Assembly (NCBI RefSeq): GCF_038632915.1
Contig: NZ_CP152050.1
Location: forward strand, 2,201,001-2,265,000
Reading direction: 5' to 3'
Source: Paenisporosarcina sp. FSL H8-0542
Lineage (GTDB): Bacteria > Bacillota > Bacilli > Bacillales_A > Planococcaceae
DNA: 64,000 nucleotides
This document shows, piece after piece, positions 3,822-63,773 of the stretch. The notes beneath the pieces were generated by a model. That model had not been told where the DNA came from. It worked only from the letters and a program-made list of their open reading frames with translations, and ran no database searches. The number at the start of each line of letters is the position of its first letter. The stretch's first letter is position 1. A program made the translations under genes and the position numbers.

Positions 3822-4415
3822 TTAATCCGATTGCCCGTGTTGGATTAATAAGGGTTGAAGTTGTTGATGTTCTAGAGCTTTGACAATCGTTGGTAGAATC
3901 TGATTGAAGTCGGAGATGAGGGAGTTTGGTTTATTATATGGATCATCCTGACCGAATGGAATGAAGTAAATGTGTTTGGCATTTATTAATCTCATGACGT
4001 TTACGCCATTTAATCCAAGTGCATCATTAGTTGAAATGCCAAGGACGACAGGTCGACCGATTCGCATGGTTGCTTTGGCAGCCATCAAAACAGGTGAATC
4101 CGTTATTGCATTAGCTAAGCGACTGATTGAATTGCCCGTTATTGGTGCAATGACCATGCAATCAAGTGGCGCTTTTGGTCCGAGTGGTTCTGCATCGGCA
4201 ATAGTGGAAATTACTTTTGCCCCAGCAGCATCCTCTATTTTTCTTACCCATTCATCCCCTGTGCCAAAGCGAGTGGCAGCTACTAGCACGGAATGTGAAA
4301 CGACTGGTACAACCACTGCACCCTGTTCTCTCAAAATAGTGATTTTCGGAACTACTTCTTCATACGTACAATGTGATGCTGTTATACCGAACCCTATTCG
4401 TTTACCTGTTAGCAC
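3822..4415 (-). CDS. dpaB: Dipicolinate synthase subunit B (flavoprotein)
   Basis: A 197-residue protein of the HFCD/flavoprotein fold. It is the B subunit of dipicolinate synthase (SpoVFB), which converts hydroxytetrahydrodipicolinate to dipicolinic acid in the mother cell during sporulation. The N-terminal GKRIGFGITASHCTYEE segment and a later PITGNS segment are typical of the family. The start is GTG, six bases after AAGGAGG. The gene lies 11 nt after dpaA. It indicates an endospore-forming organism. Confidence 0.93.
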   Translation of the reverse strand: MLTGKRIGFGITASHCTYEEVVPKITILREQGAVVVPVVSHSVLVAATRFGTGDEWVRKIEDAAGAKVISTIADAEPLGPKAPLDCMVIAPITGNSISRLANAITDSPVLMAAKATMRIGRPVVLGISTNDALGLNGVNVMRLINAKHIYFIPFGQDDPYNKPNSLISDFNQILPTIVKALEHQQLQPLLIQHGQSD

Positions 4416-5493: not shown

Positions 5494-5815
5494 ATGACTC
5501 CTCCTCCATGTTCATCTCCTTAAATATATGCAAAAAAAGACCACATGTTCACACGAAAAGCAGAAAGCGCTACTTTAGCTCGACTCCGACGGTGGAAGAA
5601 ACGAATCGGAAACCCGTTTCCGAATGAGGTTCTGAAGCGGAGGTGCGAGCTGGCGCTTGGAGCTAGACATCACGAAATGTGAAGATGGCCAATTTAGACC
5701 GACGCCGGCGCTGGAAGGGCCGATTCGAAAGCTTGCTTTCGAAAGAGGGCCTGAAGCTTAGGTGCGGTCTGGCCTTCGGAACTAGACATCAAGAATAAGT
5801 ACGAAGGCTAAATTC

Positions 5816-18953: not shown

Positions 18954-21900
18954 CTAGAATAGCGACAATTGATTCGCATCTGGCATGCCTTCGAGACAAC
19001 CAAGTTGATCCATGTATTCAATCAATGTTTTGGAAACACGTCCACGTTGTCCTAAATCTTCTTTCGATAGGAACTCGCCATTTTTCCGTGCTTCCACAAT
19101 CGTTTTGGCTACGTTTGTTCCGAGTCCAGGAATCGCATCGAAAGGTGGAATCAATCCTTTGCCATCAATGACAAATTCAGCCGCCTTTGATTCGTAGAGA
19201 TCCACTTTTTTAAAGTGGTAACCACGTTCACACATCTCCAAGGCAATTTCCAGAACCGTCAACAAGCTTTTTTCTTTCGGAGCGGCATCCAATCCTTTGG
19301 CATTAATCTCATCAATTTTTGCACGGATCGATGCAGAACCTTTCGTCATAGCGTGCAAGTCAAAATCTGCTGCGCGTACTGTGAAATATGCTGCGTAGTA
19401 AAGGATCGGGAAATGTACTTTGAAATATGCAATTCGAACAGCCATTAATACATAAGCGGCTGCATGGGCTTTCGGGAACATGTACTTAATCTTTTTACAC
19501 GCTTCGATATACCATGCAGGAACGCCATTTGCCTTCATGTCTTCTTCAAATTCCGGAGTTAACCCTTTCCCTTTACGCACAGATTCCATAATTTTAAATG
19601 CCAGAGACGGTTCAAGACCCTGGTAAATTAAATACACCATGATATCATCCCGGCAACCAATTACATCCGAAAGCTGACAAGTCCCATTTTGAATAAGTTC
19701 CTGTGCATTTCCAAGCCACACGTCAGTACCATGAGATAGTCCTGAGATTTGAACAAGTTCAGAGAAAGTGGATGGTTTCGTTTCTTCCAACATTTGACGA
19801 ACAAAACGTGTACCAAACTCAGGAATCCCGAGTGTACCCGTCTTACAGCCAATTTGTTCCTGTGTTACTCCAAGTGACTCCGTTCCACTGAAAATCTTCA
19901 TTACTTCAGGGTCATCCGTTGGAATCGTTTTTGGATCGATGCCAGACAAGTCCTGTAACATCCGGATAGCTGTCGGATCATCGTGTCCCAGGATATCAAG
20001 TTTCAATAAGTTATCATGGATGGAATGGAAGTCAAAGTGAGTTGTTTTCCACTCGGAGTCCTGTGCATCAGCAGGGAACTGAATCGGTGAAAAATCGAAA
20101 ATATCCATGTAATCCGGGACAACAATGATTCCCCCTGGATGTTGTCCTGTCGAACGTTTAACTCCAGTACACCCTTGAACAAGTCGGTCGATTTCAGCGC
20201 CACGTATTGTTAAGTTGTGATCATTCGCATAACCACGTACGTAGCCGTATGCTGTTTTCTCAGCAACCGTTCCAATCGTACCTGCACGATAAACATTGTC
20301 TTCACCAAAAAGTACTTTCGTGTAGTTATGTGCAATCGGCTGATATTCTCCACTAAAGTTCAAATCGATATCGGGTACTTTATCCCCTTTAAATCCAAGA
20401 AACGTTTCGAAAGGAATATCTTGACCATCTTTTTTGTAAGGTATTTCACAATGCGGGCAGACTTTGTTTGGCAAATCAAAGCCTGAACTGACGGAACCAT
20501 CATCAAAGAATTCAGCATGCTGGCATGAAGGACATACATAATGTGGCGGCAATGGATTCACTTCCGTAATTTCCATTAACGTCGCTACAAGAGAAGATCC
20601 AACGGAACCACGGGAACCTACTAAGTAGCCGTCATCCAAAGATTTCTTTACTAGCTTATGAGAAATCAAATAAATAACTGCAAATCCGTGTCCAATAATG
20701 GAAGTAAGTTCTTTTTCAATACGGGCTTCCACAATTTCCGGCAATGAATCTCCGTAAATCTGTCTTGCCATCGCATAGCTCAATTCTCGAACTTCTTCAT
20801 CAGAACCTTCGATTTTCGGCGTATACAAATCATCTTTAATCGGTTTGATGTCTCCGATTCTCTCCGAAATTTTATGGCTGTTCTCCACAACAATTTGTTT
20901 CGCGGTTTCTTCACCCAGGAAGGCGAAAGCGTCCAACATTTCATTTGTAGTACGGAAATGAACTTTCGGTAACTTGTGGCGGTTCAGTGGATTGGCTCCA
21001 CCTTGCCCTCCAATTAGAATCTGTCTAAAAATCGCATCGTTCTCGTTTACATAATGGACATTTCCAGTTGCGACTACCGGACGTGCAATTTTTTTGCCCA
21101 GTTTAATCATTTTTCGAATGATGTCTTCAAGATTCCATTCATCTCTCACAAGCTCGAGTTCAATTAAATGTGCGTAAACTTCTTTCGGATGGACTTCCAA
21201 GTAATCATAGAATTTTGCAATTCCCTCGACTTCTTCAGGAGATTTCTGCATTAACCCTTCGAATACTTCCCCTTTATCACACCCGGAACCAATCAACAGC
21301 CCTTTACGATGCTTGACTAGAACGGAACGCGGGATCCTCGGAACCCGGAAAAATGTGTTCATATGGGAATACGAGACTAGTTTAAACAAGTTTTTCAATC
21401 CGTCTTCATCCGTGGCAAGAAGCGTGCAGTGAGATGGACGCGCTCTCTTGTACGACTCTCCATTACCTGTTTGATGGTTGAACTCGTCGTGATAGTGAAT
21501 CCCTTTTTGTTCAGCTTCTTTCAACAAGTTCAACAGTAAGTAGCCCGTGGCTTCCGTATCATAGATTGCCCGATGATGCTGGGTGAGCTCGATATTGAAC
21601 TTTTTGGCCATCGTGTTTAATCGATGGTTTTTCATTTCCGGATGAAGGAAACGTGATAATTCCAACGTATCGATGACAGGATGGACCGTTTGTTCCAGAC
21701 CGACTTTCTTATAGCCTACGTACAGGAAACCCATATCGAATGACGCATTATGTGCAACCATGATGCTATCGCCGATCCAATCGTGGAAGCGCTTGATGAC
21801 GTCTTCAATATCCGGTGCATCACGCACCATATCATCGGTGATACCCGTCAAATCGATGGTAGTAGCAGACAATGGATGATGCGGATTTGCAAAGCTTTCG

Positions 21901-23282
21901 AATTTGTCGATGACTTGACCATCTTTGATTTTCACAGCTGCAAGCTCAATAATGGTATCGTATACCGCAGAAAGGCCTGTCGTTTCAACGTCGAATACGA
22001 CATAGGTTGCATCCGCTAGTGCTCGATGCTCCTCTTCATAGGCAATGTTTACTCCGTCATTGACCATGTAGATTTCCAATCCATAAATGATTTTAATACC
22101 ATGTTTTTTTCCGGCTGCATAAGCATCCGGGAAGGATTGAACAACAGCATGATCCGTAATTGCGACAGCGGGGTGTCCCCATTTGGCTGCCTGACTTACC
22201 AAGGCATCTACAGAAGAGACCGCGTCCATCTGACTCATTGGTGTGTGTAAATGAAGTTCAATCCTTTTTTCATCTTCTGGAGCAGTATCTTTTCTGGAAT
22301 CCACTTTAATTTCCATAATATCCTGTGCCATTATGATCAAGTCTCGAACGAATGTATCGTTCTGTACTGAACCACGGACTTTTAGCCATGTCCCTTTTTT
22401 CAGCAGACCCATAAGCTCTGCATCTTCTTTGTCCCGGGAAAACATTTTAACAAGAATCGAGTCTGTGTAATCTGTAACTTTGACTGTTAATAATGAGCGG
22501 CCGCTTCGAAGTTCTTTTACCTCAACATCAAAAACAAAGCCTTCAATCGTGATGCGTCTTTCTTCATCCTGAATTTGCTTGATTTCCATAATTGGCTCGT
22601 CCGCTTTAATCGGGGTACCCAGTTGGAAGGGGCCATTCAAGGTTACCCCAGGATTTGATGCACGATCTTTTTCACGTTTCTGCATATCAGCCAATGCTTT
22701 CTTGCCCAGCTCTTCTTCTTCGATTCTTCGTTGCTCCATAAACGCTTGCTGTGCTTCTGCCAGTTCTGCCTCTTGTTCGATAAATTTAAAATCAATCGGT
22801 AAGATTGGGAAACCATACGAAGCATAGACATCAGCTATTTTAGACGCATATTTGCCTTTCAGTGTACGGAATTCAATTTCCTGTGCACACGTAAAATGGA
22901 CGGTCTGACCATTGAAAGATGGAATTTGTGCATGTAGAAGATTTCGTAGAGGAGGCGACATATCATCAATTTCCTGCAATACAAACGGCCAGTAAGAAGC
23001 GATTAACTCAGCATCGACATGAGGTGATTCACAAGTAAGTGATAATTTTATATCCGCAATGCCAGCAAACTTTTCACGTAACCGCATATTGAATAGTTGA
23101 AACATGTTATAAGGCAATAGTTTCTCAACTTCTATAGTAAAACGCCATACACGCTCTTTTTTATGTACCGTCATACGACTTAGGGAAGCCGATTCAAAAT
23201 GAGTCATGTATTCATCAGCGGTAAGTTCCAATTGTTGTAATAATAGTTGTAACCTTTTTTTGGCATCTTGTTCGTTACTCAT
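18954..23282 (-). CDS. polC: DNA polymerase III alpha subunit, PolC type
   Basis: A 1442-residue replicative polymerase of Gram-positive type. It has an N-terminal domain, an OB-fold region (about 240-325), a PHP domain starting [13 protein letters not shown] at 341 and interrupted by the DnaQ-like 3'-5' exonuclease ([11 protein letters not shown], Asp431 and Glu433), the CPSCQH...CPHCEIP zinc motif, then palm, fingers and a C-terminal duplex-binding helix-hairpin-helix. Length is that of the family. It starts at ATG with GAAAGGAGG upstream. It is separated from proS by a terminator. Confidence 0.97.
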
Positions 23283-59971: not shown

Positions 59972-60960
59972 TTAGTTTTACCTCCTTCAATAGTTGAATG
60001 GATTGTGCCACACACATCAAATTCAACCATTGTACGTGCCTGGCGGATTGCGTTCATTACGGCATTGGCATTGGAAGACCCATGTGCTTTGATGACAGGT
60101 GCTTTCAGACCAAATAATGCAGCGCCTCCGTATTCGGTATAATCCATTTTGTTTTTTAGACCACGTAAATCATCTTTGACTAGATAAGCGGATATTTTTG
60201 ATTTCGTAGAAGCGCCAAATACTCCTTTTAACATACTGAAAAAGCTAGCTGCAGTTCCTTCTATTGACTTCAATACCATGTTGCCTGTAAAACCATCCGT
60301 CACAACAACATCAGCGACATTCATCAGTAAATCTCGTGATTCCACGTTCCCAACGAAGTTAATCGGTGCTTGTTGTAATTGACTAAAAGCAGCCTTCGTT
60401 AATTCATTTCCTTTTGTTTCTTCCGTCCCGATGTTCAGCAATCCAACTCGTGGTGATTCGATCCCACGTACTTTTGCCGCATAAATACTCCCCATAATAC
60501 CGAACTGAACCAAATGCTCAGGCTTCGCATCAGAATTTGCTCCCAAATCGAGCATAACAAATCCTTGTCCATCGATTGTCGGCAATGTTGGAGCAAGTGC
60601 AGGGCGCTCAATTCCTTCAATTCGACCTACGATGAAAAGTCCAGCAGCCATTAATGCTCCCGTGTTACCAGCAGATACACACGCATTGGCTTCTCCGTTT
60701 TTCACGGCTTCCGCCATGCGAACCATCGAAGCATCTTTTTTCCGACGAATCGCTCTTACAGGTTCATCGTCTGCTTCTATTTTTTCTTCTGTATGTATAA
60801 GTGTTAACCGTTCATGAGTTGAAAGAAACGGTTTCACCTTTTCTTCATGACCGTATAAAAGAATATGGATATCTTCGAATTGCTCCAGTGCTTTTAAAAC
60901 ACCTTCCACGATTTCTTTAGGTGCGTGGTCTCCACCCATTGCGTCTACTGCGATTCTCAT
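59968..60960 (-). CDS. plsX: Phosphate acyltransferase PlsX
   Basis: A 330-residue enzyme that makes acyl-phosphate from acyl-ACP for phospholipid synthesis. [20 protein letters not shown] and [19 protein letters not shown] are diagnostic. It overlaps fapR and fabD by four bases each, so translation through the operon is coupled. Confidence 0.97.
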
Positions 60961-61541
60961 GATACATCACCTTTACCATGCTCATTTGTGCGATACATTT
61001 CAAAATGTCCTTCAAAAACAATTTCATTTTCGACAGTTGAAGTGACTTCGACAAATGTGCGATTTTTATCTTGATCTTTTTTTGTCACTGCTGCTTTTGC
61101 AATAACGCGATCTCCAAGTTTGACTGGTTTAACAAAAGACAAATTCGATTTCACAGTCAACGCTAACTCATCATTAATGACAGCCACTGCCAACGAATTG
61201 GCCTGAGCGAATAAATGATGCCCACGTGCGATTCGATTTCGTTTGAATACATGTTCCGTTTTAACGTCAAACAATGAAATTGCTCGGACATCCAACTCAA
61301 TGTCTACCATTTCACCGATTACTTCATTTAACGGCAATGAACGTACCTCATCTTCAAAAGATTTCGAAGCGACATGTTTTATGCGCTCGCGTAACTCGGG
61401 AATTGATAATTCCAATCGATCCAATCGTATTGTCTGGACACTTACGCTAAACTGGCCTGCCAGCTCTTCATCCGTGATGAAGGGATTATTTTTTATCGTA
61501 TCTATTAACAGTTGTTGACGTTCTTTTTTTGAGCGTTTCAT
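60957..61541 (-). CDS. fapR: Fatty acid and phospholipid biosynthesis repressor FapR
   Basis: A 194-residue repressor that senses malonyl-CoA. An N-terminal helix-turn-helix ([22 protein letters not shown]) is joined by a linker helix to a C-terminal hot-dog domain that binds malonyl-CoA ([20 protein letters not shown]). The ATG at 61541 has GGTGACC upstream. A FapR operator overlaps its own start site, so the operon is autoregulated. Confidence 0.96.
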
Positions 61542-61557
61542 ATGGTCACCATCCGAT

Positions 61558-61576
61558 ATTAGCACTTGGTACTAAT
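61558..61576 (-). promoter_or_regulatory. FapR operator
   Basis: Minus strand ATTAGTACCAAGTGCTAAT, an imperfect palindrome that fits the known FapR inverted repeat (TTAGTACC...GTNCTAA). It begins four bases after the -10 box and covers the predicted transcription start, the position expected for repression. Confidence 0.88.
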
Positions 61577-61579
61577 ATC

Positions 61580-61608
61580 AGTATATTAATACAACAAAAA
61601 GAATGCAA
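61580..61608 (-). promoter_or_regulatory. Sigma-A promoter of fapR-plsX-fabD-fabG-acpP
   Basis: Minus strand: TTGCAT (61603-61608), 17-bp spacer, TATACT (61580-61585), directly upstream of the FapR operator. The 320-nt gap 61542-61861 holds this promoter, the operator and the divergent MocR upstream region; a weak plus-strand reading frame at 61615-61732 is not supported. Confidence 0.8.
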
Positions 61609-61758
61609 GGATTCTATGAAAGTTCATACTTCAAATGGAGCATCAAAAGAGTGCATTTTTCAAAGGCGAGCAATTTTTTCGGGCCATCTAAGAAAAGAAG
61701 AAGTTAAAGAATATTTCATACAGACTAATTGATGCATAGCGTTTAATTTTTCTCTTGG

Positions 61759-61772
61759 TGGCATTGGTGCCA
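61759..61772. promoter_or_regulatory. Inverted repeat upstream of the MocR-type gene
   Basis: TGGCA-TTGG-TGCCA (61759-61772) overlaps the start of CATAAT (61771-61776), a possible -10 for the rightward gene. MocR proteins often bind their own promoters, so this is a candidate operator. No good -35 was found. Confidence 0.3.
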
Positions 61773-61861
61773 TAATAGAGACAAGCAAAAGAAATCGTAA
61801 CTAAACCAATAAAACACACGATCAACTGCATTGATAAACGTACTAAAGGGGAATGTGAAAA

Positions 61862-63301
61862 ATGAACTGGATGCCGGATAGAAATGCCAAAAAAGCAATC
61901 TATAAACAGCTTGCGGAATATATCGAAGCCGGAATTGCGGATGGAACTTTTCCGCATGATGAACCACTTCCGTCGGAAAGGTTCTTGGCTAAGGAATATA
62001 ACATTAACCGCAGTACAGTTGTGTCTGCATACGACGAATTGGAATCCAATGGGCTTATCCAAAGAAAAAGAGGAAGCGGTACAACAATAAATAAAGACAT
62101 ATGGGGGATTACGAAGAAACGGATTCCGAGTTGGAATCGATATATTGAGGCTGGCTCTATATTGCCTAATTTAGCCGTAACCCAAAAAATCCGAAAAGAA
62201 GTGGCTGATCATAAATTGATCAATTTAGCGAGTGGAGAATTGTCGGAAGACCTCTTCCCACAGGCCACACTGAGAAGCATTGCATCAAACAGATCATTTT
62301 TCGGAAGCTTGGGCTATGATCACCCTCAAGGGAATGTGATATTAAGAAATACAATTGCAAAACATGTGATTCATCAAAGGAAAATGGAGGGAACAGATCC
62401 GTCCTCAATCCTTATTACCTCTGGTGCACAGCAAGCTTTGCATTTAGTCATCCAATGCCTGTTAAAGCCAGGTGATGCAGTAGCTATAGAGAATCCATCG
62501 TATTCTTACAGTCTCCCTATATTCAAATCTGCAGGTATCAGGACCTATTATTTACCCATGGACACGGAAGGAATTAATCCGGATGACTTAGTATCCTTAT
62601 ATAAAAAGCATAAAATCAGAATGATTTTCTTGAATCCCGCTTTCCAAAATCCAACTGGAACATTTCTATCCCAGAGTAGAAGAAAAGCTGTTTTGGACAT
62701 ATCATCTAAGTACGGAATTCCTATTGTGGAAGATGATCCATACAGTTTATCTTCCTTTAGGGGTGATGAAGTCACCACCTTAAAGTCGATGGACACCCAA
62801 GGGAATGTCCTGTATATAAGTTCATTATCAAAAATCGTGGCTTCCGGATTGAGGATTGGCTGGATCATAGGTCCAAAAGCGGTGATTGAACGATTAACAG
62901 ATGCGAAGCAGCAGATTGATTTTGGACATTCGAGTTTCACTCAATGGATTGCAAATGATTTCCTGGAATCAGAAGACTTTCCTGCACATATAAAAAGGTT
63001 AAACATGCAGTTGAAAAAGCGAAGAGATCAAATAGCCAAAAGCCTTGAATTTTTTCTTGGGAAACAAGTCGATTTTCATGCTCCCGAAGGAGGCATTCAT
63101 ATCTGGTGCAAGCTGAATATAGAATTTAATGAAATGAAACTGCTGGAAGAATCCATAAAAAGAGGGATTATATTTGTTCCTGGAACAACAATGGGTTCAG
63201 AAAAAGGATATGTCCGTTTTACATTTGCTAGAGAAAATGAAGGAAATATACATGAAGGAATAAAACGATTTGCAGAAGCCTTGCAAGTGGTTCAAGAGTA
63301 A
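61862..63301 (+). CDS. MocR-family transcriptional regulator (GntR HTH + aminotransferase domain)
   Basis: A 479-residue protein: an N-terminal GntR winged helix (about 10-80; LPSERFLAKEYNINRSTVVSAYDEL) and a class I aminotransferase-like domain. PLP-site residues are intact: QNPTG (262-266), EDDPYS (Asp291/292), SSLSK (Lys324) and SGLRIGW (Arg331). Such regulators sense PLP or amino compounds (GabR, PdxR, TauR). The ATG has GGGGAATG upstream. It is divergent from fapR and is absent from the B. subtilis order. The regulated gene is unknown; the small membrane protein downstream is the only local candidate. Whether the domain also has aminotransferase activity is unknown. Confidence 0.9.
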   Translation: MNWMPDRNAKKAIYKQLAEYIEAGIADGTFPHDEPLPSERFLAKEYNINRSTVVSAYDELESNGLIQRKRGSGTTINKDIWGITKKRIPSWNRYIEAGSILPNLAVTQKIRKEVADHKLINLASGELSEDLFPQATLRSIASNRSFFGSLGYDHPQGNVILRNTIAKHVIHQRKMEGTDPSSILITSGAQQALHLVIQCLLKPGDAVAIENPSYSYSLPIFKSAGIRTYYLPMDTEGINPDDLVSLYKKHKIRMIFLNPAFQNPTGTFLSQSRRKAVLDISSKYGIPIVEDDPYSLSSFRGDEVTTLKSMDTQGNVLYISSLSKIVASGLRIGWIIGPKAVIERLTDAKQQIDFGHSSFTQWIANDFLESEDFPAHIKRLNMQLKKRRDQIAKSLEFFLGKQVDFHAPEGGIHIWCKLNIEFNEMKLLEESIKRGIIFVPGTTMGSEKGYVRFTFARENEGNIHEGIKRFAEALQVVQE

Positions 63302-63308
63302 TTTATTT

Positions 63309-63384
63309 TTGAAAATAGCACAAAAGTGGATGGTATAATTAATACCGAAATGGATGGTCATAAATTTAGTAAATCCTTTATAAT
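63309..63384 (+). promoter_or_regulatory. Promoter region with direct repeats, upstream of the small membrane protein
   Basis: TATAAT at 63334-63339 has TGG before it (extended -10) and TTGAAA 19 bases upstream (63309-63314). A second TATAAT at 63379-63384 has TGGTCA 18 bases upstream. An exact 8-bp direct repeat TGGATGGT lies at 63327-63334 and 63351-63358, overlapping the first -10 and the second -35. This looks like an operator for a dimeric regulator such as MocR. The leader to the next start codon would be 120-170 nt. Confidence 0.45.
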
Positions 63385-63512
63385 TATATGCGATAGGGCA
63401 GTAGGAAAAGTAGAAATACATTTTTTATCTCATATGTAATCATTTCAATGTTTGAATGTAAGGATATATTCTAAACAAGGTTTACGATAAAGATGACATT
63501 CAAGGAGGAAAT

Positions 63513-63698
63513 ATGAACATTCTCATTTTATTAATTATCGTTTCCATAATTTTGGTGATCGCTCTGGTAAGTACACTTTTAGTTACAAAAGAAAGAGACG
63601 CTGTTTATAGTAGTGAAAAAAGTATAACTAAACTTGGATTGATGTATAGCGCCTTACTTCCACTAATAATTATTGTAGCGTTGATTTTTTGGTTTTAA
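63513..63698 (+). CDS. Small two-helix membrane protein
   Basis: A 61-residue protein, MNILILLIIVSIILVIALVS at the N terminus (one helix), a short charged loop (TKERDAVYSSEKSITKLG) and a second C-terminal helix ending in IFWF. AAGGAGGA lies at ideal distance from the ATG and a strong terminator follows, so I regard it as real. No family is recognised. It is 211 nt after the MocR-type gene, in the same direction, with its own promoter region. Confidence 0.7.
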   Translation: MNILILLIIVSIILVIALVSTLLVTKERDAVYSSEKSITKLGLMYSALLPLIIIVALIFWF

Positions 63699-63738: not shown

Positions 63739-63773
63739 AAATCGCACAGGAAAATGCTCCTGTGCGATTTTTT
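63739..63773 (+). terminator. Rho-independent terminator
   Basis: A 13-bp perfect stem (AAATCGCACAGGA and complement, six-base loop) followed by TTTTTT on the plus strand, 40 nt after the small membrane protein gene. The As on the other side make it usable in both directions. Confidence 0.9.

Follow-up and report, generated by a model that had tools for sequence, protein, structure and literature searches.

A MocR-type regulator, a paired direct repeat and a small two-helix membrane protein as a putative regulatory cassette in Paenisporosarcina and other genera

Genes and features at the locus

The stretch of DNA analysed here, referred to as the window, comprises 64,000 nucleotides from Paenisporosarcina sp. 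FSL H8-0542 (genome G000, C1:2201001-2265000), the chromosome of which is a single contig of 3.63 Mb. A gene for a MocR-type regulator of 479 amino acids lies on the plus strand at 61862-63301 and is followed in the same direction by an ORF for a 61-amino-acid membrane protein with two predicted helices (63513-63698). Between these two genes, also on the plus strand, the heptamer TGGATGG occurs twice, as a distal repeat at 63327-63333 and, 17 nt later, as a proximal repeat at 63351-63357, which together are regarded as a candidate operator. A putative promoter of the small gene spans 63355-63384 and consists of a -35 box (TGGTCA, 63355-63360), an 18-nt spacer and a -10 box (TATAAT, 63379-63384). 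Reading of the same strand further gave a ribosome-binding site (AAGGAGG, 63502-63508) and, between the small gene and the convergent recG, a likely terminator (63740-63773), formed by a perfect 12-bp hairpin and a run of T, which was not among the terminators listed by a terminator scan.

The genes that flank MocR and the small gene lie on the minus strand on both sides, and we take them to be fapR and recG. The original prediction had placed fapR on the other side of the regulator, and an ORF is present there outside the unit (60957-61565, minus strand), its name being a presumption on our part. Among nine Paenisporosarcina genomes, recG and fapR are about 80-390 nt apart in six, and MocR adjoins fapR in three (G000, G006 and G004). 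In G003 and G007, recG and fapR are close together and the pair of MocR and small gene is found elsewhere in the chromosome. The pair also occurs in four other Paenisporosarcina genomes, two of which carry it at other chromosomal sites, and this recurrence argues against chance. MocR and the small gene stay together as their surroundings vary in this genus.

The regulator

The window protein has the domain composition of the MocR subfamily, a GntR winged helix (residues 14-76, Pfam E 4e-17) followed by an aminotransferase class I/II domain (residues 118-469, Aminotran_1_2, E 1.1e-40). Residues K324, N263, D291, D292, R331 and R452 are identical in 91 of 91 aligned MocR sequences, window included, and the DNA-binding residues N49-T52 are likewise identical across the 91. 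The first five of these residues, comprising the PLP lysine and cofactor residues, presumably act at the PLP site, and the earlier expectation of a MocR protein with intact PLP residues was borne out, with K324, D291, D292 and R331 at the positions given for them. R452 is taken to be the carboxylate-binding arginine of aminotransferases; because it is invariant, a carboxylate is favoured, which suggests an amino acid-like effector. An amino compound or PLP itself would be plausible. The candidate operator also supplies what is expected of the subfamily, a repeat near the genes that are putatively regulated.

GabR from Bacillus subtilis has the same domain order, and the window MocR matches the GabR chain over residues 12-473 (E 1.7e-29), with several plain aminotransferases matching it better than the GabR chain does. 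The GabR model of NCBIfam scores 153 on the window protein against a cut-off of 600. GabR also resembles the window regulator in having an operator of direct repeats, but its regulons hold gabT, gabD and gabP, as given in the available text of PMC5320631, whereas the putative target in the window is a small membrane protein.

The small membrane protein

In an AlphaFold2 model of the 61-amino-acid protein, helices extend over residues 3-25 and 34-60, with a mean pLDDT of 79.8 and a pTM of only 0.47. The protein reaches the cut-off of no Pfam or NCBIfam family; in all, five family members were searched against Pfam and three against NCBIfam, and none reached a cut-off (lowest E 0.0038). It had originally been described as a 61-residue two-helix membrane protein of unknown family running in the direction of MocR, and both the ORF and the lack of a family match confirm this. 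A phage holin was considered and rejected, as matches were weak throughout: the SPP1 holin gave E 0.67 in Pfam and 0.12 in NCBIfam, and two members searched against PHROGs gave a lowest E of 0.068. A role in anti-phage defence was dropped as well, since the two members searched gave no PADLOC match.

Family members were collected by looking downstream of operators, one mismatch being allowed, for small ORFs with two helices; operator, hydrophobicity and ribosome-binding site served as criteria. This gave 73 placements and 64 distinct proteins, of which five are from Paenisporosarcina, 17 from the family genus labelled g17 and 42 from other named genera such as Neobacillus, Peribacillus and Cytobacillus (loci from the best 80 of 186). 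As the members were chosen by their operator, the 64 proteins alone cannot prove a link to it; their mutual similarity does bear on that link despite the way of selection. In group profile searches (Z 100,000), g17 and the Bacillaceae-type group found each other with best E values of 1.4e-5 and 4.5e-5, and the best value between groups was 4.8e-9 (Paenisporosarcina to the Bacillaceae-type group), as compared to 3.2e-3 for the best control, a reversed sequence. Profile-profile probabilities among the three groups were 95.6 to 97.9%. The three groups are probably homologous, a relation drawn from short hydrophobic sequences. Invariant positions in 41 aligned members are M1, T21, D29, Y32 and Y45.

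A search independent of the operator, with four Paenisporosarcina proteins as queries, identified relatives in 30 of 261 genomes, all of them in Paenisporosarcina (g1) and g17. Five further genera contribute 36 genomes with MocR, and this narrow model had no match in any of them; the small protein therefore does not accompany MocR obligately.

The candidate operator

The conserved element TGGATGG-N17-TGGATGG emerged from reading the intergenic regions of orthologues, and the window copy spans 63327-63357. All operator counts given here cover the 17-nt gap between the repeats only. In the 3.63-Mb genome, the exact operator occurs as a single copy, in front of the 61-amino-acid gene, and the reversed control pattern has no match. 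A whole-genome search for the TGGTTGG variant gave no copy in this genome, and the only two further sites that deviate at a single position are located within ORFs of 611 and 517 amino acids. As far as can be read from the sequence, the sole intact operator in the window's genome is thus the small-gene promoter.

The sequence TGGATGGATTCCGTATGGAATCCGTGGTAGG is present in at least seven copies outside ORFs of 100 amino acids or more in G000 (L112, L113, L115, L116, L118, L123 and L128, at 1501-1531); perhaps these copies belong to repeated RNA operons.

MocR orthologues were searched in 261 genomes of the family from 19 genera with E at most 1e-130, and were present in 60 of them (64 matches listed). 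After the second matches of G065 and G066 (45% and 46% identity) had been dropped, 62 MocR genes were left, that of G056 being partial. In 60 of these 62, the operator or its TGGTTGG variant lies no more than 1.2 kb from MocR; the two without either are the genes of G124 and G053. Exact sites number 80 in the 261 genomes, and 59 of them are within 700 nt of a MocR gene. The 60 genomes with MocR account for 69 of the 80 (in 43 genomes); ten of these are elsewhere in the genome, some of them falling within genes by chance. The other 11 come from the 201 genomes that lack MocR. For the T variant, 34 sites were found, 20 within 700 nt of MocR, five elsewhere in MocR genomes and nine in genomes without MocR. 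The reversed control pattern gave six matches over the 261 genomes, five of which came from one genome.

Two regions had been proposed for binding of the regulator. The region 63300-63400 does contain the candidate operator, and 61740-61860 is devoid of one. Autoregulation through the latter was rejected, as the best operator-like site in 61566-61861 has mismatches at six of 14 positions. By the script criterion, an operator is present in the MocR promoters of 27 of the 80 named loci (the best 80 of 186).

According to the available text of PMC5320631, MocR proteins form head-to-tail dimers fit for direct repeats. In the same work, Suvorova and Rodionov described 86 MocR regulon groups in 2016, in which two direct boxes are common and most motifs hold TGT or TGG, in line with the element found here. 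Neither TGGATGG and GGATGG nor Lysinibacillus and Planococc- occur in the main text of PMC5320631, and the group of the window might be contained in its supplements.

Promoter geometry

The -35 box of the window promoter, TGGTCA, overlaps the proximal operator repeat. The promoter matches the consensus at 10 of 12 positions, and such matches are no more frequent in the region than in shuffled sequences, so a bare consensus match is no evidence. A more specific signal is the position of the -10 box. In 63 of the 64 distinct small-gene promoters, a box with at least five of six matches lies 21-22 nt past the proximal repeat (21 nt in 11 and 22 nt in 52 promoters), whereas mononucleotide shuffles of the 64 promoters averaged 5.4 with such a box and reached 13 at most. 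The next best 3-nt interval in the real promoters, 15-17 nt after the repeat, holds a -10 box in 26. The hexamers at the place of the -35 box consist of TGG followed by TTA in 17, TTC in 15, TCC in 13 and TCA in seven of the 64. The distance from operator to start codon ranges from 63 to 204 nt across the small genes and is 155 nt in the window.

Co-occurrence and loss of regulator, operator and small gene

The original prediction had left two ways for the pair to fail, namely that the two genes never occur together elsewhere or that the regulator acts only on a distant operon. The genes do co-occur, in five of five Paenisporosarcina genomes with MocR, in 19 of 19 of g17 and at 42 of 61 loci of other genera (from the best 80 of 186), and the position of the sole intact operator at the small-gene promoter speaks against a purely distant target. 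In g17, 18 of the 19 small genes adjoin MocR behind an operator; those of G167, G173, G177, G178 and G220 were found by inspection of the MocR flanks, outside the list of the homology search. In G222, operator and leader are kept and another ORF follows, with a small-gene homologue without operator about 1.9 kb away. The operator in front of the small gene has no mismatch in five of five MocR genomes of g1 and one mismatch in 18 of 19 of g17. For a second copy of the small gene in G007, no operator was seen in the upstream sequence.

A homologue of the small gene without MocR is present in 11 genomes of g1 and g17. Ten of them were scored for the operator; the hit of G212 holds a stop and was left unscored, as were second copies in G195 and G230. 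The best site had no mismatch in G179, two in G195 and G228, four in G231, five in G227 and G230, six in G008, G204 and G229, and seven in G221, so that seven of the ten carry four or more mismatches. In G204, the DNA that surrounds the small gene has a broken MocR remnant beside the decayed operator; the corresponding stretches of eight other genomes without MocR, a set that excludes G228 and G212, showed no such remnant. As the genomes with and without MocR are related, these counts do not represent independent events.

Arrangement and targets in other genera

Beyond the family set, with which they overlap, the best 80 of 186 loci were taken as named loci; some genomes contribute two loci and a few stretches are incomplete. 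By genus name, 19 of the 80 were assigned to the family of the window and 61 to other genera. The fetched stretches of 42 of these 61 loci (from the best 80 of 186) include a small gene linked to an operator; the gene lies in tandem upstream of MocR in 19, convergent to it in 15 and in tandem downstream in eight. Nine of the 42 are more than 650 nt away from MocR. The small genes of g17 run convergent to MocR, with TGGTTGG-N17-TGGATGG preceding their own promoter. The operator thus accompanies the small gene in all three orientations relative to MocR.

The 37 tight units (gap no larger than 650 nt; four from Paenisporosarcina; from the best 80 of 186) lie in 35 distinct outer contexts, as judged from the longest ORF to the left and right of each unit; these 74 ORFs form 58 similarity groups. 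The number of contexts is an upper estimate, as some flanking ORFs may not be genes. The gene adjoining the pair in several g17 genomes (L065, L068, L069, L071 and L178) is presumably topB, encoding DNA topoisomerase III. In L068 (3353-3712 and 6219-6560) and L071, pieces resembling the 5' end of topB flank the pair left and right, a pattern that would fit target duplication by an insertion.

Operators beside MocR or away from it also lie in front of genes for YfmQ (PF10787), deoC, a histidinol-phosphate aminotransferase (HisC), another aminotransferase, a HemQ-type heme synthase, a nitrilase and an Orn/Lys/Arg-type decarboxylase. Family models were run on a single example of each kind. The deoC, HisC, HemQ and YfmQ examples reached the family cut-offs, the second aminotransferase reached that of a model named only hypothetical protein, and the nitrilase and decarboxylase examples reached none. 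In the fetched stretches of the 80 named loci (best 80 of 186), YfmQ-like genes are present in 34, qoxA-like in 12, decarboxylase and deoC in seven each, nitrilase in five, HisC and the other aminotransferase in four each and HemQ in three, tallies that count presence in the stretch and are not proof of control. The name qoxA for the oxidase-like neighbour is our assumption.

In L078 (G237), three operators follow in a row (1451-1481, 3895-3925 and 5507-5537); they precede a pair of HisC-like and aminotransferase genes, HemQ-like and PLP decarboxylase-like genes, and MocR itself, with oxidase-like genes divergent. In two genomes of g8 (L172 and L173), an operator lies before a deoC-like gene on a contig different from that of MocR. 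At four loci chosen for operators away from the MocR regions (e.g. L180 and L181), the motif is inside or against ORFs and looks like chance. Since the same operator fronts different genes across genera, MocR targets appear to be lineage-specific, and in the genome of the window no target other than the small gene has an intact operator.

Literature searches brought up no work linking MocR to YfmQ and nothing on a MocR-family operator together with a membrane protein of unknown function. For MocR and small membrane protein, only the RNA RydC in E. coli surfaced, and for MocR and Lysinibacillus only antifungal activity.

A probable regulatory cassette and its alternatives

The pair together with its operator very probably forms a compact regulatory cassette, in which bound MocR controls the small gene upon reaction of an effector with PLP. 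The small stand-alone response unit that had been proposed from the window is well supported by comparative genomics, and it is on such comparisons that the putative operator, the promoter geometry and the links to MocR and the small gene rest. DNA binding, sign of control, the chemistry of PLP and effector and the role of the membrane protein are what we infer from them. MocR would bind the paired TGGATGG repeats as a head-to-tail dimer, an amino acid-like effector would react with its PLP, and bound MocR would then, most likely, activate transcription of the two-helix membrane protein. As the proximal repeat overlaps the -35 box, bound MocR would control transcription of the small gene, and the weak -35 box under this repeat suggests activation. 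What speaks against the cassette is that 11 genomes keep a small-gene homologue without MocR, among them G179 with a perfect operator and G195 and G228 with two mismatches, and that the narrow small-protein model had no match in the 36 further MocR genomes.

The same unit might also work with the opposite sign, MocR repressing the small gene until an effector relieves repression, which is possible but clearly less probable. The overlap of the proximal repeat with the -35 box fits repression as well as activation, and EnuR, of the MocR/GabR group, is termed a repressor in the available text of PMC8739950. However, at the -35 position the hexamers bear little resemblance to TTGACA and the -10 box follows at a long distance, as expected of promoters that need help.

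A different effector was considered in view of MpaR from Pseudomonas aeruginosa. MpaR is a MocR-type regulator adjoining a membrane-protein gene that it activates; as described in the available text of PMC10790758, it responds to cyanide by inducing an orphan oxidase subunit, and its PLP lysine is needed. The two systems, likened by description, differ in that MpaR has a palindromic motif and an oxidase subunit as its target (PMC10790758), whereas the window has direct repeats and an undescribed two-helix protein. By analogy, the window MocR would respond to a reactive small molecule such as cyanide, and the small protein would protect or adjust a terminal oxidase. The qoxA-like (12), nitrilase-like (5) and HemQ-like (3) neighbours among the 80 named loci (best 80 of 186) would fit, but no oxidase gene was seen beside the window pair, the alternative targets deoC, HisC and YfmQ do not suit a cyanide or oxidase reading, the invariant R452 points to a carboxylate effector, and the scanned nitrilase stays far under the Nit6803 cut-off (217 vs 503). 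This reading is unlikely, and the MpaR response to cyanide along with the oxidase- and nitrilase-like neighbours is a lead for the effector, no more.

That the window protein is PdxR, controlling vitamin B6 synthesis elsewhere with the small gene as a bystander, is highly improbable. PdxR is its best NCBIfam model, and the protein passes the cut-off narrowly (336.7 vs 320 bits). However, a separate MocR in G000 scores 621.8 on this model and is oriented divergently to pdxS, the two ORFs being about 80 nt apart (C1 about 20537-22941, L008:328-2732), and no operator site with up to one mismatch lies near pdxS. Linkage to genes of PLP synthesis is thus a property of this higher-scoring paralogue and not of the window MocR (pdxS at C1:22075, window MocR at C1:2262862), and the PdxR identity was rejected. 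As a caution, the model score alone would name the window MocR PdxR.

It is barely credible that the two genes merely hitch-hike in a mobile stretch, neutrally and without any regulation, for although the unit often changes place, operator and -10 spacing are conserved whatever the gene order, and the operator has mostly decayed where MocR was lost.

Meaning for the family

Many MocR regulators are without a known effector, because their targets are hard to tell. The cassette described here would be a new regulon and target family inside a known regulator class. As its predicted target set in one genome is one promoter with a defined operator, it offers one clear site for reporter and binding assays. 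It is a rather speculative, though not wholly fanciful, idea that the unit is a self-contained and often relocated sensor-effector cassette of Bacillaceae and their relatives. In this view, a PLP regulator would respond to a small reactive or amino compound, possibly cyanide or a respiratory poison akin to it, by turning on the undescribed two-helix protein, which would modify a membrane complex directly; the cassette would spread as a unit and would have drawn metabolic genes into its regulon in some genera. The small protein linked to MocR gives access to a so far undescribed family of small membrane proteins, which annotation misses as a class.
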